A stretch of DNA of 43,112 bases, taken from the IMG/VR virus record IMGVR_UViG_3300049432_000203, positions 1 to 43,112 of that record. One strand, given 5' to 3'. Origin of the DNA: a virus. Below, piece by piece: positions 1,856 through 43,112 of this stretch (position 1 is its first letter; each line of letters opens with the position of its first letter). The notes under the pieces were generated by a model. It was not told the origin of the DNA and did no database searches. It was given only the letters and a program-made list of their open reading frames with translations. The position numbers and the translations under genes are program-made.

Positions 1856-3636
1856 AATGACACCCCACTGGTCGTGCCTTCTACCCTCACCCCATCCGGC
1901 CCGTCATCCCCGCCCGTACTTCTATGAGTCAAGTAAATAGAATGTGTTTTGGCCCCTCTCACGTTTAACTTCATCGTTGGAAGAATCTGGAAGCCTGTTC
2001 TGGTCGGCGTCATGGACTTTGAGACCGCATGGTTAGTCCTGTCACCATTCCTGAACATCTTGGCTGCTAATGTATAAGTCGTGTTATCGAACCTTCCCCC
2101 GATCTTCAGTCTCAGTGCCTGGCTTGCTTCATCAACAGAAAGACGTTCGCCCGACCACACTTCCCAGATGCTTCCCGTTCCCGAATTCCACGCATAGAAC
2201 CTGACATTGGCGCCGTTCTCAGTAGCAAAGTAGAGTTCGTTCCCTACAGTCACCGTGGCGCAGATGTTGCCGATGATCAGTGTTGATAAATCAAGCGGCG
2301 TTGACCACTCTTCTGTCTGCACATTAAACGCGAGGATTGTCTGCCCGTGCGCGTAAACCACGAACTTGCCTTTAGCATCCCATCCCAGCACTACCGCTGA
2401 TTGAATCCACGAGGCCATATCCTCTGAAACGCGGTCGCCGAACTCGGTATCAGGCTCAGGCGTATTATTTATTCGCGCAGGCTGTCCCGCATACGCATAA
2501 AGTCGTCCCCCTTCAGCAATGCACATATTGTGCTGTGCCGCTATGCCTGTTGATGACCACACGGTCTGGAGGTTCAGAGGGATGCGCCCACCTGTGTAGG
2601 TCAGGGCATGCATGGAGTTTTTGCATCCGACGAAACAGAAGCCATCTGAGGCGCGGGAAAGAACACCAACGGGGGGTTCAGGCAGAATCAGGAGATTGTC
2701 CGGTGGGTAACTCTCTGGAAAGAGTGGAAGTGAAACGGCAATAGCGGAACCCGGCGTTGTAGCAGTAACCCCTGAGGTGGTGTCCCCGTAACATCCGATG
2801 AGCGCAACGACATCCATGACTGCCACCGCAAAGACGGCAGCGGGTGGGGTGAAATCATCTATCGGGGCAAGGTCTTTGCCCACTAAATCTGTGGAGGAAT
2901 ATTCAAGCTCGTACGAGTTAGCAACACCGTCAACTGTAGTCAGGGAGGTGGTAGCAATCTCGATATATTGGTAATGTGGGCCAGTTGAGCCGAAGCCCCA
3001 CGCGGGCAAATCTATCCCGATGCGGTCAATCCCGACGGATGCCGCATAGGTCAAATCTGCCGCGTCAATGGTGACTCTCACCTTGAACCCGTCCACCACT
3101 AAAACATTAGAAGCGGTAGAGGCCCTTGATCTTGCGCCAGTAGTCGAGCGCACGTAGTGAATTCTTGCGCTTGTCGTGCCTGAATTGATGGTTGAAGCGT
3201 TTGGGGTAGTAGCAATCACCGGAGCCGTGGGCACATTTAGTCCTGCCGTAACGGGTCCGGTCGTGCCCCCGAAATATGAACCCCCCTTGTAGAGCAGCAA
3301 CTGAAACGCGGTTGATGCGCTGACAGCACGACTACCTCCATTGATAATCAGCAAGCCCTGTCCGATGAATCCCATCACTCGAGAGATTAAGCCGACAATA
3401 GACCCGATGCCGTTCTGGGTGTGATTTCCGAGTCCTGCCCACCCCCCATCGGGAGAGTTGAACATCACACGTCCCCCAACAATGGCAGCATTAATGAGTG
3501 GGCCTTTGTAGGCGGTAGCTTTGCTGTTTCCGCCAAACAATAAATTCTTAGAGCCGAACGCACACCTGCCCTCACCGACCACGCCTGAGCGGTTTCCATC
3601 GTACCCATTGAATTCTATGGTGGACAGGTTATCCAT
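1852..3636 (-). CDS. Beta-rich tail protein, candidate nozzle/hub
   Basis: This 594-aa protein, the largest in the tail end of the operon, is almost entirely predicted beta structure. It has repeated Gly/Tyr/Trp-rich strands (FVVYAHGQTILAFNVQTEEW, NELYFATENGANVRFYAW) that look like blades of a propeller. Short-tailed phages have a propeller-bearing nozzle of similar size (T7 gp12, P22 gp10 type), and the position after four small connector-like genes fits that role. I see no catalytic motif. It begins at ATG 3636 and overlaps the preceding gene by 8 bases. Identification rests on length, composition and order, not on a recognised motif. Confidence 0.5.
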   Translation of the reverse strand: MDNLSTIEFNGYDGNRSGVVGEGRCAFGSKNLLFGGNSKATAYKGPLINAAIVGGRVMFNSPDGGWAGLGNHTQNGIGSIVGLISRVMGFIGQGLLIINGGSRAVSASTAFQLLLYKGGSYFGGTTGPVTAGLNVPTAPVIATTPNASTINSGTTSARIHYVRSTTGARSRASTASNVLVVDGFKVRVTIDAADLTYAASVGIDRIGIDLPAWGFGSTGPHYQYIEIATTSLTTVDGVANSYELEYSSTDLVGKDLAPIDDFTPPAAVFAVAVMDVVALIGCYGDTTSGVTATTPGSAIAVSLPLFPESYPPDNLLILPEPPVGVLSRASDGFCFVGCKNSMHALTYTGGRIPLNLQTVWSSTGIAAQHNMCIAEGGRLYAYAGQPARINNTPEPDTEFGDRVSEDMASWIQSAVVLGWDAKGKFVVYAHGQTILAFNVQTEEWSTPLDLSTLIIGNICATVTVGNELYFATENGANVRFYAWNSGTGSIWEVWSGERLSVDEASQALRLKIGGRFDNTTYTLAAKMFRNGDRTNHAVSKSMTPTRTGFQILPTMKLNVRGAKTHSIYLTHRSTGGDDGPDGVRVEGTTSGVSL

Positions 3637-7074: not shown

Positions 7075-7644
7075 TTAGATTTCCCGGTAAACTTCCGGCG
7101 TAATGTAGTCAGTGGTCAGTGCACGACCCACTGGCGCGTTGTCTTCGTCAATCTGTTTCTGCAACTCTCTGTCGGTTTCCCTGTCTCTTTCGGCCTGTGT
7201 GTTGATGCACACCTGAAGATGCTCAATCGTATCTCGCCCCGGCGACCTGTAATTCCCCTGCAAGTCTTCAACCTCGTAGTAGAAGGTGTAACGACCTCGG
7301 GGGTGGGCTTCACGTTCCACCGGACTGAGCCTTGACGGGTCAGTGAATCTTTCAGCGATCCACCGAGGAGTACCGACCTCAACCACTTTCTCTCTGACTG
7401 CCCAGATACTGTTCACAAGTGTGGGCGCCATGACAGTCTTGGTCTTTCCGGGTATCCAGTATTTGAGTCCCCACGTGCCGTCAGACTTTCGCTCTCTCTC
7501 GTTGCCGCCCCACACGATCTTGACGTTGGGTTCATTAAACCTGTTAAGCCCGAAGGTCTTGGTCAGTTCTTCCTGCACCCAACTATCAAGGGGAGGAGGA
7601 ATGGAGTAGTCCTCTTGGGGACGATCTATCGTTTTCTCTCTCAT
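7075..7644 (-). CDS. Conserved-looking virion-region protein, unknown
   Basis: This 189-aa charged protein has a Trp/Tyr-rich N-terminal half (NVKIVWGGNERER, GLKYWIPGKTKTV, PRGRYTFYYEVEDL) and an Arg/Glu/Asp-rich helix near residues 145-170. It is the first gene after the major capsid protein, separated from it by a strong GC-rich hairpin. Position suggests a head or neck component. No motif allows a more exact call. The start at 7644 has only a weak upstream site. Confidence 0.55.
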   Translation of the reverse strand: MREKTIDRPQEDYSIPPPLDSWVQEELTKTFGLNRFNEPNVKIVWGGNERERKSDGTWGLKYWIPGKTKTVMAPTLVNSIWAVREKVVEVGTPRWIAERFTDPSRLSPVEREAHPRGRYTFYYEVEDLQGNYRSPGRDTIEHLQVCINTQAERDRETDRELQKQIDEDNAPVGRALTTDYITPEVYREI

Positions 7645-7659
7645 AAAGTCTTGAGGAGT

Positions 7660-7686
7660 GGGGGTGCGCAGGCCACCCCCCTTTTT
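7660..7686 (+). terminator. GC hairpin with T-tract facing the plus strand
   Basis: A perfect 7-bp stem GGGGGTG / CACCCCC with a 7-base loop is followed on the plus strand by C and five T. In the plus direction this is an intrinsic terminator, opposite to the genes on both sides. In the minus-strand transcript it is a stable hairpin between capsid and downstream genes without a U-tract, so there it could protect mRNA ends or lower downstream expression. Confidence 0.6.
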
Positions 7687-7712
7687 CAGCTAATGCATTC
7701 TCCTCGTCCTGA

Positions 7713-8954
7713 TTACAAGCCCGACGGAATCGCCAGTGCTTTGATAAGCGCCAGTGAGTTCGGTTGCGGACTTCCTATGTCGCCCTTAAAGCTGAAGTAG
7801 AACAACACGCTGTCGGCATGAATCCCAGTCCCGGGCTTCATGAACAACGTCTGTCCGCCACGATTCAACAGTCCCGGCTCCCTCACGACGAAGCGTTGCA
7901 GTCCGCCCGGAGTGATGAAGTAGATACGGTCACGGGGGCAGTCAACATCCGTCTTCCACGGGATGCCGTTGTGCGCGACGTTCGGGAACCCAAGGTCGAG
8001 CTTGTTGTTCCCCGAAGCATTGACGTTTCGCGTCAGTGAATAACCGAGTGAACGGTAAGCCTGTTGCTGTGCTGGATGACTGATCATGTACATCTGGCCG
8101 CCAACCTCACTGGACGAGGTGATCTCCATCTTGGTCAGCAGCACGTCAATGAGGGAGGTGGAGAGTGCGCCACTGGAGGCATCCGTCACCGTTGCCCTCA
8201 AGGAAGGATAGGTGGTGCGCCCGTTGGTCAGTCCCTGGTAGGTACCGGTAGCATCGTCAACGTGATAGGCGAGGCCGTGAATGTCCCGACCGTAACTACC
8301 TTCATAGGTCACGATGTCGCCCACCACGGCATCCGTGGGAACCGAGTCGAAGGTTACAACCCCGGTGGCGACGTTGACCGCCGTAACTGTGGAAACACTC
8401 GCACCCGTGACGTGTGCCACGCCTGCCGTGGTGTAGAAGTTCATGCGGGCGCCAACTAAGAATTGGCGTGCGCCACGAGCGTCACCGTTCATCGTTGCGG
8501 TACCGGCAGCACCTGTGGTGATTGCGGAGACGATGCCTTTGGCACCTGAACCATCCTGATAGCACTGTTGATTGATCTCTTTCTTGAAGCTCTGCGCCAT
8601 CCTCTTCGTGGTACCCGAAAGGAGGTTGCCGATGGTGTTGCTATCTTGCAGGTCGAGGACATCACCCGTGACGGCGCCTGTTTTCCACTTGCGACGAATA
8701 GGGACTCTCATCTCTACGTCGGTCGGTGCGCCTGGAAGAGGAAGGTAAGCACCCTCATCGAGAGAGGCGTTGGAGGCATCGGGGGCAACATACGCTGTAA
8801 TGCGTGCGCCGCCTGCGCGGGGATTGTTTTTCTGTGAGCGCCCGTCCATCAGAAGATCAAGGAGAACTGCTTTCTCCTGGAACATCTTTCTGGTTTCGGG
8901 CTGAACATACTCAATGAACCAACTGTTCAGAGTAGTGGTGGTAACTTCAGCCAT
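7713..8954 (-). CDS. Major capsid protein (HK97 fold)
   Basis: This 413-aa protein starts at ATG 8954 with a GGGAG site. Length, position after the scaffold-like gene and features of the HK97-fold N4-gp56-like capsid class support the call. These features are an N-terminal arm (residues 1-40), the segment RKWKTGAVTGDVLDLQDSNT and helix SFKKEINQQCYQDG, a Gly/Thr/Val-rich inserted beta domain (about 140-240), and the late motif GQMYMISHPAQQQAYRSLG with NVAHNGIPWKTDVDC. It would form the icosahedral shell. The Thr/Val-rich insertion may be exposed on the capsid surface. Confidence 0.85.
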   Translation of the reverse strand: MAEVTTTTLNSWFIEYVQPETRKMFQEKAVLLDLLMDGRSQKNNPRAGGARITAYVAPDASNASLDEGAYLPLPGAPTDVEMRVPIRRKWKTGAVTGDVLDLQDSNTIGNLLSGTTKRMAQSFKKEINQQCYQDGSGAKGIVSAITTGAAGTATMNGDARGARQFLVGARMNFYTTAGVAHVTGASVSTVTAVNVATGVVTFDSVPTDAVVGDIVTYEGSYGRDIHGLAYHVDDATGTYQGLTNGRTTYPSLRATVTDASSGALSTSLIDVLLTKMEITSSSEVGGQMYMISHPAQQQAYRSLGYSLTRNVNASGNNKLDLGFPNVAHNGIPWKTDVDCPRDRIYFITPGGLQRFVVREPGLLNRGGQTLFMKPGTGIHADSVLFYFSFKGDIGSPQPNSLALIKALAIPSGL

Positions 8955-30392: not shown

Positions 30393-30904
30393 GCTGCCCT
30401 TTCGAGGTCTGGGATAAATGGAACCGCTCTTGCTCCGTAAACGAGTCCGATGGATTCAAAAAGTTTAGGAGTGGCTTTAACGTGCGGATAGATGAGAAGT
30501 CCCTGAATGTAATCTGTTCCGTTAAAGTAGGGTTTAATGATTCCCTGCTTATAGGGAAGGAACATTCTGTAGCACTCGTCAAAGTAGAATCCCGGCACAC
30601 GTAAGAGATTGAATTTCCTGCCCATCTCAGCGGCGAAGATTGACTTTTGAATGTCGGTCGGGATCGAGCGAAGCAATCTCATTTCGTGCGCTGAAGGATT
30701 CCAATACTCTTTGATTGCTCTTGCGTCCTGTTCGGTCAGGTAAGGGGTTGTGATGTCGTGCAGACAACGATCAACGGAGTGGTGACTGCCGCGCTTTCGA
30801 CAATCGCAGGTGTAATCCGGATTCGGCACACGCACCGTCAGGCACTCATTCAGGAGATATGAATAAGCGAGATGCCTGTTTATTTCTTTGCCGAGTTCGC
30901 TCAA
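30389..30904 (-). CDS. Possible primase-related/DNA-binding protein
   Basis: This 171-aa protein starts with TTG 30904 (site GAGGG, TTGA overlap). A cysteine/histidine cluster (CDCRKRGSHHSVDRC at about residues 33-47) may hold zinc. The later pattern RVPGFYFDECYRMFLPYKQG, then IQGLLIYPH, resembles the stretch between zinc-binding and Toprim parts of bacterial/phage primases, where gvPGFY is followed by a glycine-rich strand. No catalytic Toprim residues follow, so it is a fragment-like or accessory form. Coupled to the initiator-like gene. Confidence 0.45.
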   Translation of the reverse strand: MSELGKEINRHLAYSYLLNECLTVRVPNPDYTCDCRKRGSHHSVDRCLHDITTPYLTEQDARAIKEYWNPSAHEMRLLRSIPTDIQKSIFAAEMGRKFNLLRVPGFYFDECYRMFLPYKQGIIKPYFNGTDYIQGLLIYPHVKATPKLFESIGLVYGARAVPFIPDLERAA

Positions 30905-31272
30905 TGCTTACCCTCGTATAAATAAAGACCGAGGCCAAATTTCGCCGCCGCACGTTTGAGTGCCATTGCCTCCGCGTTAGAAGATGAGTCGCCGTAGCCC
31001 TTAACGTCGGCCTCTTCTTGTCCTGTAGCGTAGCGGGTCACTAATCCCTCTTCGCAGGGAATGGAGATTCCGATAGCGACGATGAGAGTGCCGCCGACTT
31101 CCGTCACTTTCGGCTCAGTCGTTGACCATCCCGGCGCGTACAGATCAAGGAAACGGACAGCCGTGTACCATGTGATAAAGGTAATGTCGGAGCCGCCCAT
31201 CTTCTTATGCTTTAAGAATCTGTCAGGCAGAGGTTTTGACAGGTCGGCAATGATGTCCGTGATGCTTCTCAT
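30901..31272 (-). CDS. Rad52-family single-strand annealing protein
   Basis: The ATG at 31272 has GGAGAC upstream and shares a base with the preceding TAA, giving 123 aa. The sequence GYGDSSSNAEAMALKRAAAK followed by FGLGLYLYEG is the signature of Rad52/Rad22-like annealing proteins of phages. It would anneal complementary single strands in recombination and replication. The protein is shorter than usual, representing the core domain. It is in a cassette with NinB-like and HNH genes. Confidence 0.85.
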   Translation of the reverse strand: MRSITDIIADLSKPLPDRFLKHKKMGGSDITFITWYTAVRFLDLYAPGWSTTEPKVTEVGGTLIVAIGISIPCEEGLVTRYATGQEEADVKGYGDSSSNAEAMALKRAAAKFGLGLYLYEGKH

Positions 31273-31709
31273 TATCTTGTCTCCGCAAACATTTCGGCTG
31301 GCAAGATAATCAGGCCACAAAACTCAGCCAGAAACTTAGCCGCCAAATCCAAATAGATTGAGAATTGTTCCGTATCCATATCGTGGGTTGTAGGCACAAG
31401 CTCTAATGCTTGCCCCGTCTGTTCGTTGACCTTTGTTCTGGGGTCTATGACAGCGCACTTCAGGGTGATGTGGGCTTGCTCGGCGGTAATGGAAGGATCG
31501 CCGTACTCGCGCCTTAACCATTCAAGCCAGGGCGGAATAAAGGCTGACCAGTAATAAGCGTTCTGGTCTAAAGAACGTGTCCGCTTTCGTGCTTTTAATT
31601 TGACTTCCCACAGGCCTTCTAGGGTTGAAATATGGGTCATCAACTTTCGCTTCTCTTCGAGGTTTGAGAGGTTATGCACTGGCGTTGGTTCGCGTTCTGA
31701 TAGTTTCAT
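31272..31709 (-). CDS. ninB: NinB/Orf-family recombination mediator
   Basis: This 145-aa protein carries the recognisable NinB pattern KARKRTRSLDQNAYYW at residues 39-54 and a later TEQFSIYLDLAAKFLAEFCG helix. NinB (lambda Orf) binds single-stranded DNA and SSB and helps load annealing proteins. It directly precedes the Rad52-like gene with TAATG overlap, so both are made together. The first 20 residues are a variable tail. Confidence 0.85.
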   Translation of the reverse strand: MKLSEREPTPVHNLSNLEEKRKLMTHISTLEGLWEVKLKARKRTRSLDQNAYYWSAFIPPWLEWLRREYGDPSITAEQAHITLKCAVIDPRTKVNEQTGQALELVPTTHDMDTEQFSIYLDLAAKFLAEFCGLIILPAEMFAETR

Positions 31710-34680: not shown

Positions 34681-34854
34681 TTAGGCTGCCTTTTGCTGTT
34701 CAGCTTCGGCACGTTGGGCATCACTTAGCACCATCACCGCAAACTTCTGCGGCGAGTTCAGGCCGTGAATGCCCGCCTTCTTTTGAAGCCATTTATCAAG
34801 CTGCTTTGGCAACACGATGTAGCGTCCGATGTTTCCGTCTTTTAGTTTTGGCAT
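34681..34854 (-). CDS. RHH DNA-binding protein, first gene of PL
   Basis: A 57-aa protein with a ribbon-helix-helix plan: strand GRYIVLPKQL, helix DKWLQKKAGIHGL, turn NSP, helix QKFAVMVLSDAQRAEAE. The ATG at 34854 has GGAGGAGG directly upstream, and PL starts only about 20 bases before it. As the first product of the leftward operon and divergent to another RHH gene, it may be the Cro- or Arc-like antagonist of the switch. RHH proteins bind as dimers by the beta ribbon. Confidence 0.7.
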   Translation of the reverse strand: MPKLKDGNIGRYIVLPKQLDKWLQKKAGIHGLNSPQKFAVMVLSDAQRAEAEQQKAA

Positions 34855-34870: not shown

Positions 34871-34908
34871 TTCTAGGGGATTCTAGAATCTTCTAGCGGC
34901 GATGTCAA
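34871..34908 (-). promoter_or_regulatory. Leftward early promoter PL with operator OL
   Basis: On the minus strand TTGACA (34908-34903) and TAGAAT (34885-34880) are exactly 17 bases apart, a near-consensus sigma-70 promoter. A 24-bp operator (34896-34873) of CTAGAA, two bases, TTCTAGAAT, three bases, CTAG covers the -10. Transcription would begin near 34873, ending in a leader of about 20 bases. The same promoter and operator pattern recurs at 36.27-36.31 kb in the opposite direction. Confidence 0.85.
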
Positions 34909-34928
34909 GAAAATAATCTTGCGAGGAC

Positions 34929-34936
34929 TTCTAGAA
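34929..34936 (+). promoter_or_regulatory. Third operator half-pair TTCTAGAA at the RHH start codon
   Basis: TTCTAGAA lies immediately before the ATG at 34937, between it and the GAGGA ribosome site. It repeats the core of OL and OR. A bound protein would block transcription or translation start of the RHH gene, suggesting autoregulation. A weak plus-strand promoter (TTCTAG, 17 bases, TAATCT) overlaps OL just upstream. Confidence 0.5.
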
Positions 34937-35212
34937 ATGACTAATATGTTTGCCGTGCCTGTAAAAGAAGGAAAAGTTCAATTAAATCTGTGGGTTTCTG
35001 AAGACATGGACAAGGCTCTCAAGCGTCTTGCACAGCAGCGGAATCTGCGCGGACGTACTCAAATGGCTGAAATAATTCTCAATCAATATCTGGACGACGC
35101 GGCAACTGAGGACTTCAGCGCACCGCTCTTTAAGGTCAAGGCGGGGGAATCACACCCAAGCATCCAGCTTAAAGGCGCGGCGAAGCCATCAAAGAGGGGC
35201 GGTAAGAAGTGA
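34937..35212 (+). CDS. RHH repressor-type DNA-binding protein
   Basis: This 91-aa protein has a ribbon-helix-helix domain at residues 13-52: strand KVQLNLWVSE, helix DMDKALKRLAQQRNL, turn RGR, helix TQMAEIILNQYLDDA. A flexible basic tail (KPSKRGGKK) may add DNA contacts. It is the first gene between the twin promoters and overlaps the UmuD-like gene as GTGA. RHH proteins such as P22 Arc bind TAGA half-sites, and the operators here are built from TCTAGA. It is the best candidate for the lysogeny repressor. Confidence 0.75.
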   Translation: MTNMFAVPVKEGKVQLNLWVSEDMDKALKRLAQQRNLRGRTQMAEIILNQYLDDAATEDFSAPLFKVKAGESHPSIQLKGAAKPSKRGGKK

Positions 35213-35643
35213 ACGCTACAATCCGGCAATTCTACAGTCCTGACGAAGTACCCAAGTCAGACTTACCTCTGTTCTCCGTCCAGCTTCCCGCCGGATACCC
35301 CACACGCATTGATTGTGACAATCCGAGCCGCCTCAACATCGTAGAATTTCTCATCAGGCATCCTGACGACACCGTGTTTGGAACTGTCTCAGGTGATTCG
35401 ATGGAAGGTGAAGATATTTACGATGGCGACTTGCTGGTGATTGATCGTGCGCTCGAGCCGGTGGAGGGATGCGTGATTGTCGCTTTCATCAACGGAGATT
35501 TTACGGTCAAGAAATTCTCACACAGAGACGGAAAGATGTTCCTTGTATCCGGTAACAGACGATACCCGCCTCAAGAGATTAAAGAACACAATGATTTTGA
35601 AGTGTGGGGTGTGGTTTCTCACGTCATTCATAAACGAATCTAA
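35209..35643 (+). CDS. UmuD-like S24 self-cleaving peptidase
   Basis: This 144-aa protein has the UmuD/LexA pattern. The cleavage site Ala28-Gly29 (LPAGYPTR), nucleophile Ser64 in SGDSM and base Lys101 in FTVKKF are spaced 36 and 37 residues apart, exactly as Cys24, Ser60 and Lys97 in UmuD. RecA filaments would trigger self-cleavage after DNA damage. No UmuC follows and it starts with GTG inside the stop of the RHH gene, so it is more likely a switch component than a polymerase subunit. Confidence 0.88.
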   Translation: MNATIRQFYSPDEVPKSDLPLFSVQLPAGYPTRIDCDNPSRLNIVEFLIRHPDDTVFGTVSGDSMEGEDIYDGDLLVIDRALEPVEGCVIVAFINGDFTVKKFSHRDGKMFLVSGNRRYPPQEIKEHNDFEVWGVVSHVIHKRI

Positions 35644-35657
35644 AAGGAAGGCTCACC

Positions 35658-36185
35658 ATGAAACGACTCTTCACGCTGACGGCCTGCATTCTTTTCCTCG
35701 CCGCCGGAGCTTTCGCGCAAAGGTTGCCGAACCCGAATATTCGCGTCAAGCATGATAAATTCAAGGATTCAACGTCAATTTTAATGAAAGGCGGCGACGT
35801 TGAGAACTTAAAAGGATTAGCAACGTCTGCACACTTTTCCGCTGTAGCTATCCATCCAGGCGAGAAACTTACTTCGCCCATTGATGGTATAGGAATCGCC
35901 GTCTCAACCAAATCTGAGAATTGGCTTTTCCTCGACAACGAAACTATTTTGAGGGTGATTTTGAACGACAAGGAGCGGATAATTCTTGGCAAGATGAGTC
36001 GGACATCCAGCGACGTTGAAAGGGGTTATGTGTCAGAGTTGCTTACTTTAGTAATCTCCAATAAAGATTTGAACAAACTTGCCAACGCAAAGAAAGTTGA
36101 GATGCAAGTTGGACGAATTGAATTTGAATTGACCGAAGCTATCCTCGCAGACCTCAAAGAATTTGCTGGAATGTTAGTTCCCTAG
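35658..36185 (+). CDS. Secreted 175-aa protein (moron) in the switch region
   Basis: A strong AAGGAAGG site precedes the ATG at 35658. A Sec signal (residues 1-20, RLFTLTACILFLAAGAFAQ with AFA-Q cleavage) leads to a mature beta-rich protein of about 155 residues ending in a helix (EAILADLKEFAGM). It shares an operon with the repressor-type genes and precedes a terminator, so it should be made during lysogeny, like lambda rex or conversion genes. No family is recognised. Confidence 0.7.
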   Translation: MKRLFTLTACILFLAAGAFAQRLPNPNIRVKHDKFKDSTSILMKGGDVENLKGLATSAHFSAVAIHPGEKLTSPIDGIGIAVSTKSENWLFLDNETILRVILNDKERIILGKMSRTSSDVERGYVSELLTLVISNKDLNKLANAKKVEMQVGRIEFELTEAILADLKEFAGMLVP

Positions 36186-36211
36186 CCTCATATTTCACCG
36201 ATAACTATTAG

Positions 36212-36245
36212 GCGTTCGGTCTTCGGATCGGACGCTTTTCTTTTT
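36212..36245 (+). terminator. Intrinsic terminator with UUCG loop
   Basis: A 10-bp stem GCGTTCGGTC / GATCGGACGC (two G-U pairs in RNA) closes a TTCG tetraloop and is followed by TTTTCTTTTT. It lies 27 bases after the secreted-protein gene and 27 bases before PR, so it separates the repressor operon from the rightward operon. Confidence 0.9.
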
Positions 36246-36271
36246 CCTTCTACCTTACACGAAATAGTATG

Positions 36272-36307
36272 TTGACTATCATCCTAGAAAGTTCTAGAAT
36301 CCTCTAG
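36272..36307 (+). promoter_or_regulatory. Rightward early promoter PR with operator OR
   Basis: TTGACT (36272-36277), 17 bases, TAGAAT (36295-36300) is a near-consensus promoter. The 24-bp operator at 36284-36307 matches OL at all positions except in the two short variable spacers, and covers the -10 in the same way. Transcription would start near 36307 and reach the first gene at 36345. Two identical operators at outward promoters indicate joint repression by one protein. Confidence 0.88.
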
Positions 36308-37772: not shown

Positions 37773-38071
37773 GCTACACCACACCCGAACAAGTCTACCC
37801 AAGTTCGCTACAGGTGAAAGCCGAGTACGACAAGTTGTCCAGAGAACTTCGCGCCGGACTAATCTCAGATGAGCAGCTTATCGAGCGCAGGCATAAATTG
37901 ATTCACATGGAGTACGAATCTTTGAAGCCTTATCGCTTAGAGAAGACGGTTGACGATCCTGATTGCTTCATGTGCCGGGAAGAGGAGCGTGGTTTAGCTC
38001 ATCGTGTTGATGAACCGATGCTGATGCCGAAGGTGGATGAGAGCGAGAAGGTAAGGGGTATCAGAATTTAA
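37769..38071 (+). CDS. 100-aa hypothetical protein
   Basis: The GTG at 37769 overlaps the stop of the Lar-like gene (GTGA) and follows GGGGGAA; earlier readings lie inside that gene. Residues 10-50 are a charged coiled helix (VKAEYDKLSRELRAGLISDE). The second half has one CFMC pair and an acidic tail. The TAA shares a base with the next ATG. Function unknown. Confidence 0.65.
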   Translation: MSYTTPEQVYPSSLQVKAEYDKLSRELRAGLISDEQLIERRHKLIHMEYESLKPYRLEKTVDDPDCFMCREEERGLAHRVDEPMLMPKVDESEKVRGIRI

Positions 38072-38577
38072 TGCACTGGCAACTTTCACATAGAGCGGAT
38101 AAGAGGGCATTGCCGCTGGCTGACAGGCATTACAACCGCCAGAAGATAGGTAGTCCACAGTTTGTTCCGCCCGGACGCTGCATTGTCTTAGGACTTGAAG
38201 TGGCAGGCCAATATGACTACGTAGCCTTGTGGGTAAGTAGTTGGCCTTTCGCTGAATATGTGCGGCACGCATGGGCGGGTGCTTGGGTTTGCACGATGTT
38301 TCGCAATGAATCAAGTGTCCTGTCCAGTGAACTGATACGCGAAGCCGTTGCTATCACTCGTGGTCGCTGGGACGTTCCTGAACTTGGAATGATTACTTTT
38401 GTTGACAGATCGAAAGTAAGGCACAAGCGAGACTTCGGCAGATGTTATAGGCGAGCTGGGTTCAAGCCGTGTGGGTTTACAAAAGGCGGTTTGGTTGCTT
38501 TGCAATTATTGCCTGTTGACATGCCCGAACCATTAAAGGTTGAAAGCGCGCAAAGGTCGTTCCTTGATGCCGCTTAA
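38071..38577 (+). CDS. GNAT/Mom-like candidate DNA-modification protein
   Basis: This 168-aa protein has many conserved-looking motifs: LADRHYNRQKIGSPQFVPPG, VALWVSSWP, HAWAGAWVCTMFRNES, SSELIREAV, GMITFVDRSKVRHKRDFG and CYRRAGF. These match a phage family I associate with Mom-like acetyltransferase-fold proteins that alter DNA bases to evade restriction. I cannot prove the assignment by motif alone. It is next to the Lar-like gene, another anti-restriction candidate, which is supportive. Confidence 0.5.
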   Translation: MHWQLSHRADKRALPLADRHYNRQKIGSPQFVPPGRCIVLGLEVAGQYDYVALWVSSWPFAEYVRHAWAGAWVCTMFRNESSVLSSELIREAVAITRGRWDVPELGMITFVDRSKVRHKRDFGRCYRRAGFKPCGFTKGGLVALQLLPVDMPEPLKVESAQRSFLDAA

Positions 38578-40389: not shown

Positions 40390-40656
40390 ATGAGCGAAAT
40401 AGAACAAGTATTTGAAGCTATTGCAAACCGCGTCTTTGATCGGCGCAAAGATGAACTTCTACAGTCCCGGCCTGAGCCTGCAAAACTCTCACTTGTCGAG
40501 CCACTGGTCAGCGTGGCACAGGCTGCTAAACATCTGGACATCTCCGAGAGGAAGTTGAGACAGATGGTGGCAGACAGGAAGATTCCGTTTCGCAGGATAG
40601 ATGGAAGCGTGAAGTTTAAGTTGAGTGAGTTGGATGATTGGAGTGTGGCGGCGTGA
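40390..40656 (+). CDS. xis: Excisionase-like HTH protein (AlpA/Xis)
   Basis: This 88-aa protein ends in a winged-helix excisionase/AlpA domain at residues 38-86: LVSVAQAAKHLDISERKLRQ, then MVADRKIPFRRIDGSVKFKL and SELDDW. This pattern (HTH followed by PFRRIDG and a short strand) is typical of phage recombination directionality factors, which bend DNA at att sites and favour excision. It precedes the integrase by 1.4 kb on the same strand. The N-terminal 35 residues are a charged extension. Confidence 0.8.
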   Translation: MSEIEQVFEAIANRVFDRRKDELLQSRPEPAKLSLVEPLVSVAQAAKHLDISERKLRQMVADRKIPFRRIDGSVKFKLSELDDWSVAA

Positions 40657-42032: not shown

Positions 42033-43112
42033 ATGACAGTCAGACGCAGAGGGAAGGCCGGGAGATTCTGTTACGATTTCATGATCCGGCGAGTCCGTTA
42101 CAAAGCTGCTATTCCAGAAGCCAGAACCAAGCAGGAAGCGTTACAGGCAGAAGCCGACGCGCGCCGTGCGGTATATGAAGGGAGGTATGGCAAGCAAGCC
42201 TCAAGCACAGGTTTCGAGAAGTTCGTGCGCGAGGTATTCGTACCGTACTGCAAGGCCAATAGAAAGAACCATGAGCAGGATGAACAGAAAGCGAATCTAT
42301 TCATCCAGTTCTTCAAAGGTAAAACATTCTCCGAGATTAGCCCGATGCAGATAGAGAAGTTCAAAAAGGAACGCAGAGACGGGATTACCAAACGAAACAC
42401 CGTCAGGAAAGCGTCAAGTGTGAACCAGGAACTATCCGTGTTGAGCCGTGTCTTTAATCTGGCGATAGAGAACGGCTACACCAATGTCAATCCTGTTGAT
42501 AAGGTCAGGATGATTAGAGGCATTGAAGCGCGGGAGCGGTATCTTGGTTACGATGAGGAAGTGAGATTGAGAAGGGTGATTGAGGCGGATTTCCCTGAGC
42601 TTCTACCTCTTCTCGATCTGGCATTGAACACCGGCATGAGGCACAGGGAAATGACCAACCTTGCCGTCCATGAAGTTAATCTGCAAGCCCGGTCAATTAC
42701 CCTGCCAGCCGAGAGAACCAAAGAAAAGAAGTCCAAGACCATTCCGCTCAATGATGTGGCTTACAACGTGGTTTCCCGGCTCGTGGGGGACGCCGACAGA
42801 GGCAGATTGTTTGATAGAGGCTACGAAGCCTCGTGGATAGAAAGGCGGTGGAGAGAGGCATGCAAAGCAGCAGAAGTGCTTGATCTGCGTATCCACGACC
42901 TCCGCCACACCTTTGCTACTCGCCTGTCGGAGTCGGGTGTCACGGAAACCGCCATCGCCGCCCTGCTCGGCCACTCATCTATCAGGATGACAAAAAGGTA
43001 CACGCACGCAACACCAGAGGCCACACGCGCCGCTGTGGGGAATCTTTGTCTCAAGATTGTACCAGCAACGGCAGAAACCGCTAATTTACGCCTGCATAAA
43101 TCTGCATCCTAA
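42033..43112 (+). CDS. int: Tyrosine site-specific integrase
   Basis: This 359-aa protein has the tyrosine recombinase layout: an N-terminal Arg-rich arm-binding part (1-55), a SAM-like core-binding domain (62-165) and a catalytic domain. Its residues are Arg203 (NTGMRHREM), Lys230 (ERTKEK), His288-x-x-Arg291 (HDLRHTF), His314 (LLGHSS) and nucleophile Tyr323 (KRYTH). It joins phage and host DNA at att sites. The AGGAGG site is strong. The window ends at its stop codon, so attP is not seen. Confidence 0.95.
   Translation: MTVRRRGKAGRFCYDFMIRRVRYKAAIPEARTKQEALQAEADARRAVYEGRYGKQASSTGFEKFVREVFVPYCKANRKNHEQDEQKANLFIQFFKGKTFSEISPMQIEKFKKERRDGITKRNTVRKASSVNQELSVLSRVFNLAIENGYTNVNPVDKVRMIRGIEARERYLGYDEEVRLRRVIEADFPELLPLLDLALNTGMRHREMTNLAVHEVNLQARSITLPAERTKEKKSKTIPLNDVAYNVVSRLVGDADRGRLFDRGYEASWIERRWREACKAAEVLDLRIHDLRHTFATRLSESGVTETAIAALLGHSSIRMTKRYTHATPEATRAAVGNLCLKIVPATAETANLRLHKSAS

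Follow-up and report, generated by a model that had tools for sequence, protein, structure and literature searches.

The window, meaning the whole 43,112-nucleotide stretch of viral DNA analyzed here, contains what its sequence indicates is a real and conserved lambda-style switch with an unusual predicted type of repressor and possibly a detached sensor, and one relative of it was found. The likely reading is an immunity region, belonging to a temperate phage and laid out as a mirror image of lambda, in which an RHH repressor would act at both operators and an S24 protein would be the likeliest sensor.

Twin outward promoters and their operators

A first-pass annotation of this DNA had described twin outward promoters of the form TTGAC[A/T]-17-TAGAAT with the same 24-mer over each -10, and both were located exactly as claimed. 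They are the top two sigma-70 matches in the region, and each has a counterpart in IMGVR_UViG_3300020152_000027, another virus contig, whose structural genes differ (hereafter G001, the immunity locus of which is cited in L004 coordinates). The control elements are as follows:

34880 to 34908, minus strand: sigma-70-type promoter ("PL" of the first-pass annotation), with TTGACA at 34908-34903, a 17-nt spacer, and TAGAAT at 34885-34880; 11/12 match
36272 to 36300, plus strand: sigma-70-type promoter ("PR" of the first-pass annotation), with TTGACT at 36272-36277, a 17-nt spacer, and TAGAAT at 36295-36300; 10/12 match
34873 to 34896, minus strand: three CTAG boxes in 10-bp steps, predicted to be the operator at the early promoter on the repressor side, which is PR-like in lambda terms
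36284 to 36307, plus strand: three CTAG boxes in 10-bp steps, predicted to be the operator at the distal promoter, which is PL-like in lambda terms
34929 to 34936, no strand assigned: single TTCTAGAA box, an exact match, kept in G001 at L004:4110-4117
34912 to 34917, plus strand: candidate -10 of the repressor promoter (AATAAT, PRM-like, with a weak -35), chosen by eye
36210 to 36237, plus strand: predicted intrinsic terminator between the repressor operon and the distal promoter

Transcription is predicted to start near 34873 from the minus promoter and near 36307 from the plus promoter. The only exact matches to CTAGAANNTTCTAGAATNNNCTAG in the window are the two operators, both of which sit over a -10, and 100 dinucleotide shuffles yielded no match. 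As had been claimed, only spacer bases distinguish the two 24-mers, which mismatch at three positions, each inside the N spacers. One feature absent from the first-pass annotation is that the CTAG cores are spaced by exactly 10 bp (34873/83/93 and 36284/94/304). Since such steps approximate one helical turn, three protein dimers could line up over the -10 on a single face of the helix. Within the operator stretch, CTAGAA-NN-TTCTAG also forms an inverted repeat of 14 bp, and the boxes could accordingly be recognized individually or as pairs.

A third copy of TTCTAGAA had been placed on the start codon of the RHH gene. This copy is indeed present, but it directly abuts the ATG at 34937 instead of covering it, and its position makes it a possible autoregulation site. 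Just upstream of this box and the RHH start lies the weak -10-like AATAAT, and the corresponding position in G001 reads TAAAAT. The window has three exact copies of TTCTAGAA, all within the region singled out in the first-pass annotation, compared with 0.66 copies expected from Markov models. With G001 included, 7/7 exact copies fall inside the immunity regions, which span just 1.4–2.3 kb.

Gene order and conservation in a second phage

The genes that bear upon the comparison with lambda are the following:

34681 to 34854, minus strand: 57-aa protein in the Cro position, leading the early transcript on the repressor side
34937 to 35212, plus strand: RHH protein of 91 aa, the predicted repressor
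35209 to 35643, plus strand: UmuD-type S24 protein of 144 aa
35658 to 36185, plus strand: 175-aa protein with a signal-peptide-like N terminus and no informative family, located where the lysogenic operon of lambda has rex
30901 to 31709, minus strand: NinB-like and Erf/Rad52-like genes, downstream of the minus promoter
40390 to 40656, plus strand: excisionase-like HTH_17 gene, downstream of the plus promoter
42033 to 43112, plus strand: tyrosine integrase, downstream of the plus promoter

Lambda has the order PL/OL - rexB rexA cI - PR/OR - cro, with a helix-turn-helix repressor and 17-bp operators. Here, the minus arm comprises the 57-aa gene, the recombination genes, and then the late genes, which makes the minus promoter PR-like, while the plus arm comprises early genes, the xis-like gene, and the integrase, which makes the plus promoter PL-like. 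By this gene content, the layout is that of lambda, mirrored. Two outward early promoters, each overlapped by a copy of one operator, flank an operon that begins at the Cro side and heads toward the other promoter, with integration genes on one arm and recombination and late genes on the other; that this operon encodes the repressor is suggested by the protein comparisons below. This assignment puts the start of the repressor operon on the PR-like side, similar to cI-rexA-rexB. The first-pass annotation had it running from the OL side, a labelling slip that arose from naming the promoters by strand. Unlike lambda, the predicted repressor is RHH-type rather than helix-turn-helix, the RHH-like protein and the S24 protease are encoded by two genes rather than fused, and the operators consist of three 10-bp-spaced CTAG boxes rather than 17-bp sites.

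The first-pass annotation had also named conservation of the operators in related phages as a check, and a pattern scan of viral contigs returned one genuine relative, G001. Its promoters combine TTGACA in one case and TTGACT in the other with TAGAAT across 17-nt spacers, and the boxes occupy the same place, the distal copy having 1 mismatch. As an exact word, TTGAC-N18-TAGAAT is found at two sites in the window and at two in G001, and the operator is present at 4/4 of these sites. In G001, TTCTAGAA likewise abuts the RHH ATG, a terminator again lies between the repressor operon and the distal promoter, and a fourth TTCTAGAA precedes a 130-aa gene of the repressor operon. The intergenic stretch from the RHH gene to the 57/59-aa gene aligns end to end between the two. 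The proposed lambda-like twin-operator logic therefore held up, with the same architecture in an otherwise different phage and the expected genes on both arms. The window and G001 share just five matching protein pairs, none of them structural, so the switch was either kept or transferred en bloc.

With the RHH, S24, and 57-aa proteins as queries, searches of viral, genome, phage, and plasmid collections turned up no holder of the switch besides G001. The promoter-operator pattern gave 2 matches among 85,462 species (one genome per species), neither with this gene context. Matches at L003, L014, L015, L016, L017, and L023 were set aside because this context is missing. No tRNA genes were found in the window.

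Several further observations concern these two contigs. At 38071-38577 (+), the window encodes a 168-aa protein of PHROG 24928 (unknown function, 1e-47) that is 49% identical to the product of G001 7302-7826 and has weaker relatives encoded on plasmids, including those of Brevibacillus and Cytobacillus. G001 encodes a ParA-type ATPase at 47640-48440 (+) (L012; Pfam AAA_31, 3e-45), from which it may be a phage-plasmid, and the next gene contains CTAG-rich coding repeats (48488-48937). The final genes of both lysogenic operons (window 35658-36185 (+); L004:2605-2994 (-) and 2010-2648 (-)) start with signal-peptide- or membrane-like segments; by analogy with rex, a role in superinfection exclusion is a guess.

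The predicted repressor, the coupled S24 protein, and the Cro-position protein

The 91-aa protein matches Pfam RHH_1 at E=0.007, which is below gathering, and its G001 counterpart is 29–34% identical and returned no RHH family match. Its structural model is strand-helix-helix (E14-21, H22-34, H40-57), with a modest pLDDT of about 70–80 in the fold, and Foldseek matches to it, all weak, include permuted Arc and NikR. Strand residues K13, Q15, and N17 alternate and are common to the window and G001 proteins, whereas the intervening residues vary. Thus, across these two sequences only, the alternating DNA-facing strand residues are conserved alongside a conserved operator, as is typical of the RHH superfamily. 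Arc contacts a TAGA box through strand residues Gln9, Asn11, and Arg13 (PMC12645479). The TCTAGA box here consists of TCTA overlapping TAGA, and together with K13-x-Q15-x-N17 it resembles the Arc arrangement, a likeness of pattern rather than a test of homology; Arc was not returned among sequence matches of the RHH query to solved structures. The 91-aa RHH protein is the most probable repressor of both early promoters and would also restrict its own production via the start-codon box.

The S24 gene starts with a GTG that overlaps the RHH stop codon by 4 nt (GTGA). Its product (Pfam Peptidase_S24, 7e-22; PDB UmuD, 1e-19) is separate from the RHH protein, has no DNA-binding domain, and in alignment retains the Ser64-Lys101 dyad and the self-cleavage-site Gly of the UmuD family (Ala28-Gly29). 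We propose tentatively that it acts as a detached SOS sensor, the least secure claim of this report. An alternative is that the RHH protein is the entire repressor and the S24 gene an accessory UmuD-type gene, for instance one affecting host SOS mutagenesis, with only an incidental position in the lysogenic operon; we regard this as a serious contender, if somewhat short of an even chance. The nearest solved structure is UmuD and not LexA or CI, the protein matches the NCBIfam polymerase V subunit model at 8e-32, just under the cut-off, and G001 keeps the operators even though profile search detected no S24 gene there. The same absence renders the sensor claim less secure, and by that search the sensor lies outside the conserved core of the switch. 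A 170-aa gene following the G001 RHH gene was suspected by eye to encode a decayed S24 protein, but this was dropped as profile searches were unsupportive. On the other hand, the window has no UmuC gene beside the S24 gene, the neighbor being the 175-aa protein gene, unlike its gut UmuD relatives, which adjoin UmuC-like genes, or the relative in a Morganella phage, which is annotated with UmuC. The start-stop overlap with the RHH gene also suggests a common function.

The identity of the box reader raises a second alternative, since three 10-bp-spaced boxes together with a 57-aa product that may itself be RHH do not fix this role to the 91-aa protein. The 57-aa protein is better conserved in G001 (L004:4194-4370) than the RHH protein, at 66% identity by BLAST (67% in alignment), and for this reason it remains a rival: it could be the main reader of CTAG boxes, which are themselves nearly identical in the two phages, with the RHH protein as its partner or regulator. 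Its Foldseek matches are mostly RHH proteins (CopG, NikA, ParD2, FitA, and Arc), though with weak E-values of about 3–10, and on this modelling it may be a small RHH protein, perhaps a Cro-like antagonist with that fold. Profile comparison with the 91-aa protein gave only 3.4% probability. We nonetheless judge it unlikely to be the main reader, as it is transcribed from the very promoter that it would repress, which fits Cro but not a lysogenic repressor; moreover, its outward strand positions G10, Y12, and V14 look poor for base reading, and the strand itself does not form in the model. It is far less probable still that a host repressor, such as one of the LexA type, binds the boxes and was borrowed by the phage. 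GIL01 is reported to borrow LexA in this way (PMC4551915), but the 85,462-species scan argues against it, and the boxes flank a predicted DNA-binding protein encoded by the phage and abut its start codon. Finally, a chance likeness of two AT-rich promoters, which has nothing in its favor past the shared -10 hexamer and is contradicted by the empty shuffles and the conservation in a second phage, can be dismissed.

Proposed mechanism and comparison with known systems

For the preferred reading, an RHH repressor supported by the S24 protein, we infer which protein binds, repression, autoregulation, and the entire sensor step. In a lysogen, RHH dimers would lie side by side on the three CTAG boxes, spaced by 10 bp, that cover the -10 at each early promoter, thereby silencing the minus arm (the 57-aa gene, recombination, and late genes) as well as the plus arm (early genes together with xis and int), while the single box at the RHH start codon would restrain synthesis of the repressor itself. 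Full-length S24 protein, produced from the coupled gene, would stabilize the repressor complex or keep it active, and RecA-stimulated self-cleavage of S24 would take this support away, leading to phage induction. It is conceivable, though less likely than not, that the pair amounts to a split CI-type repressor, in which operator recognition falls to RHH while damage sensing and control of RHH fall to a free UmuD-type protein, with the cassette exchanged among structurally different phages.

Partial parallels exist for each component. Arc and Mnt are likewise RHH repressors of a bacterial phage, P22, in which they work in the secondary immunity region and not at paired PL/PR-like promoters as proposed here; sequence searches also found no match to Arc. 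The RHH lysogeny regulator F55 of SSV1, a UV-inducible virus, binds tandem TAGA-containing ATAGATAG repeats both at its own promoter and at several early ones, but the virus and promoters are archaeal, the ATAGATAG repeats are direct, and no attached S24 gene is described there (PMC5569661). In Pseudoalteromonas phage ACA1/C5a, gp4 is a standalone S24 SOS-sensing protease, the repressor has no such domain, and noncovalent association of the two was proposed (PMC10612066). The S24 domain is thus a separate polypeptide in both cases, and gp4 is 44% identical to the window S24 protein over 61% of the latter. ACA1/C5a is P2-like and its protease gene lies apart from the repressor gene, whereas here it is coupled directly to the RHH gene, so by analogy the RHH-S24 operon would be the tighter case.

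If this reading is right, lambda wiring, with its paired outward promoters, shared operators, Cro-position gene, and autoregulation, can use an unrelated DNA-binding fold. Likewise, damage sensing can fall to a protein of its own, and the noncovalent SOS sensor proposed for ACA1 gp4 becomes testable in a two-gene operon. The operator would also become searchable, as TTGACN(7)CTAGAN(3)TTCTAGAATN(3)CTAG, for phages with repressors missed by sequence annotation.

Among the pattern matches that were set aside is L014:1518-1553 (-), on a Thiotrichaceae contig where no RHH or phage genes were seen; there, an IscR/Rrf2-like gene is preceded by TTGACT-17-TAGAAT with three CTAGs spaced by 10 bp. A Prevotella intergenic region, L015:2020-2065 (-), has four CTAG boxes in 10-bp steps. 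Many such boxes at 10-bp steps also occur within longer repeats on an unrelated viral contig (L003:8973-9774), where GAANNTTCNNGAA fits a eukaryotic heat-shock element as well.
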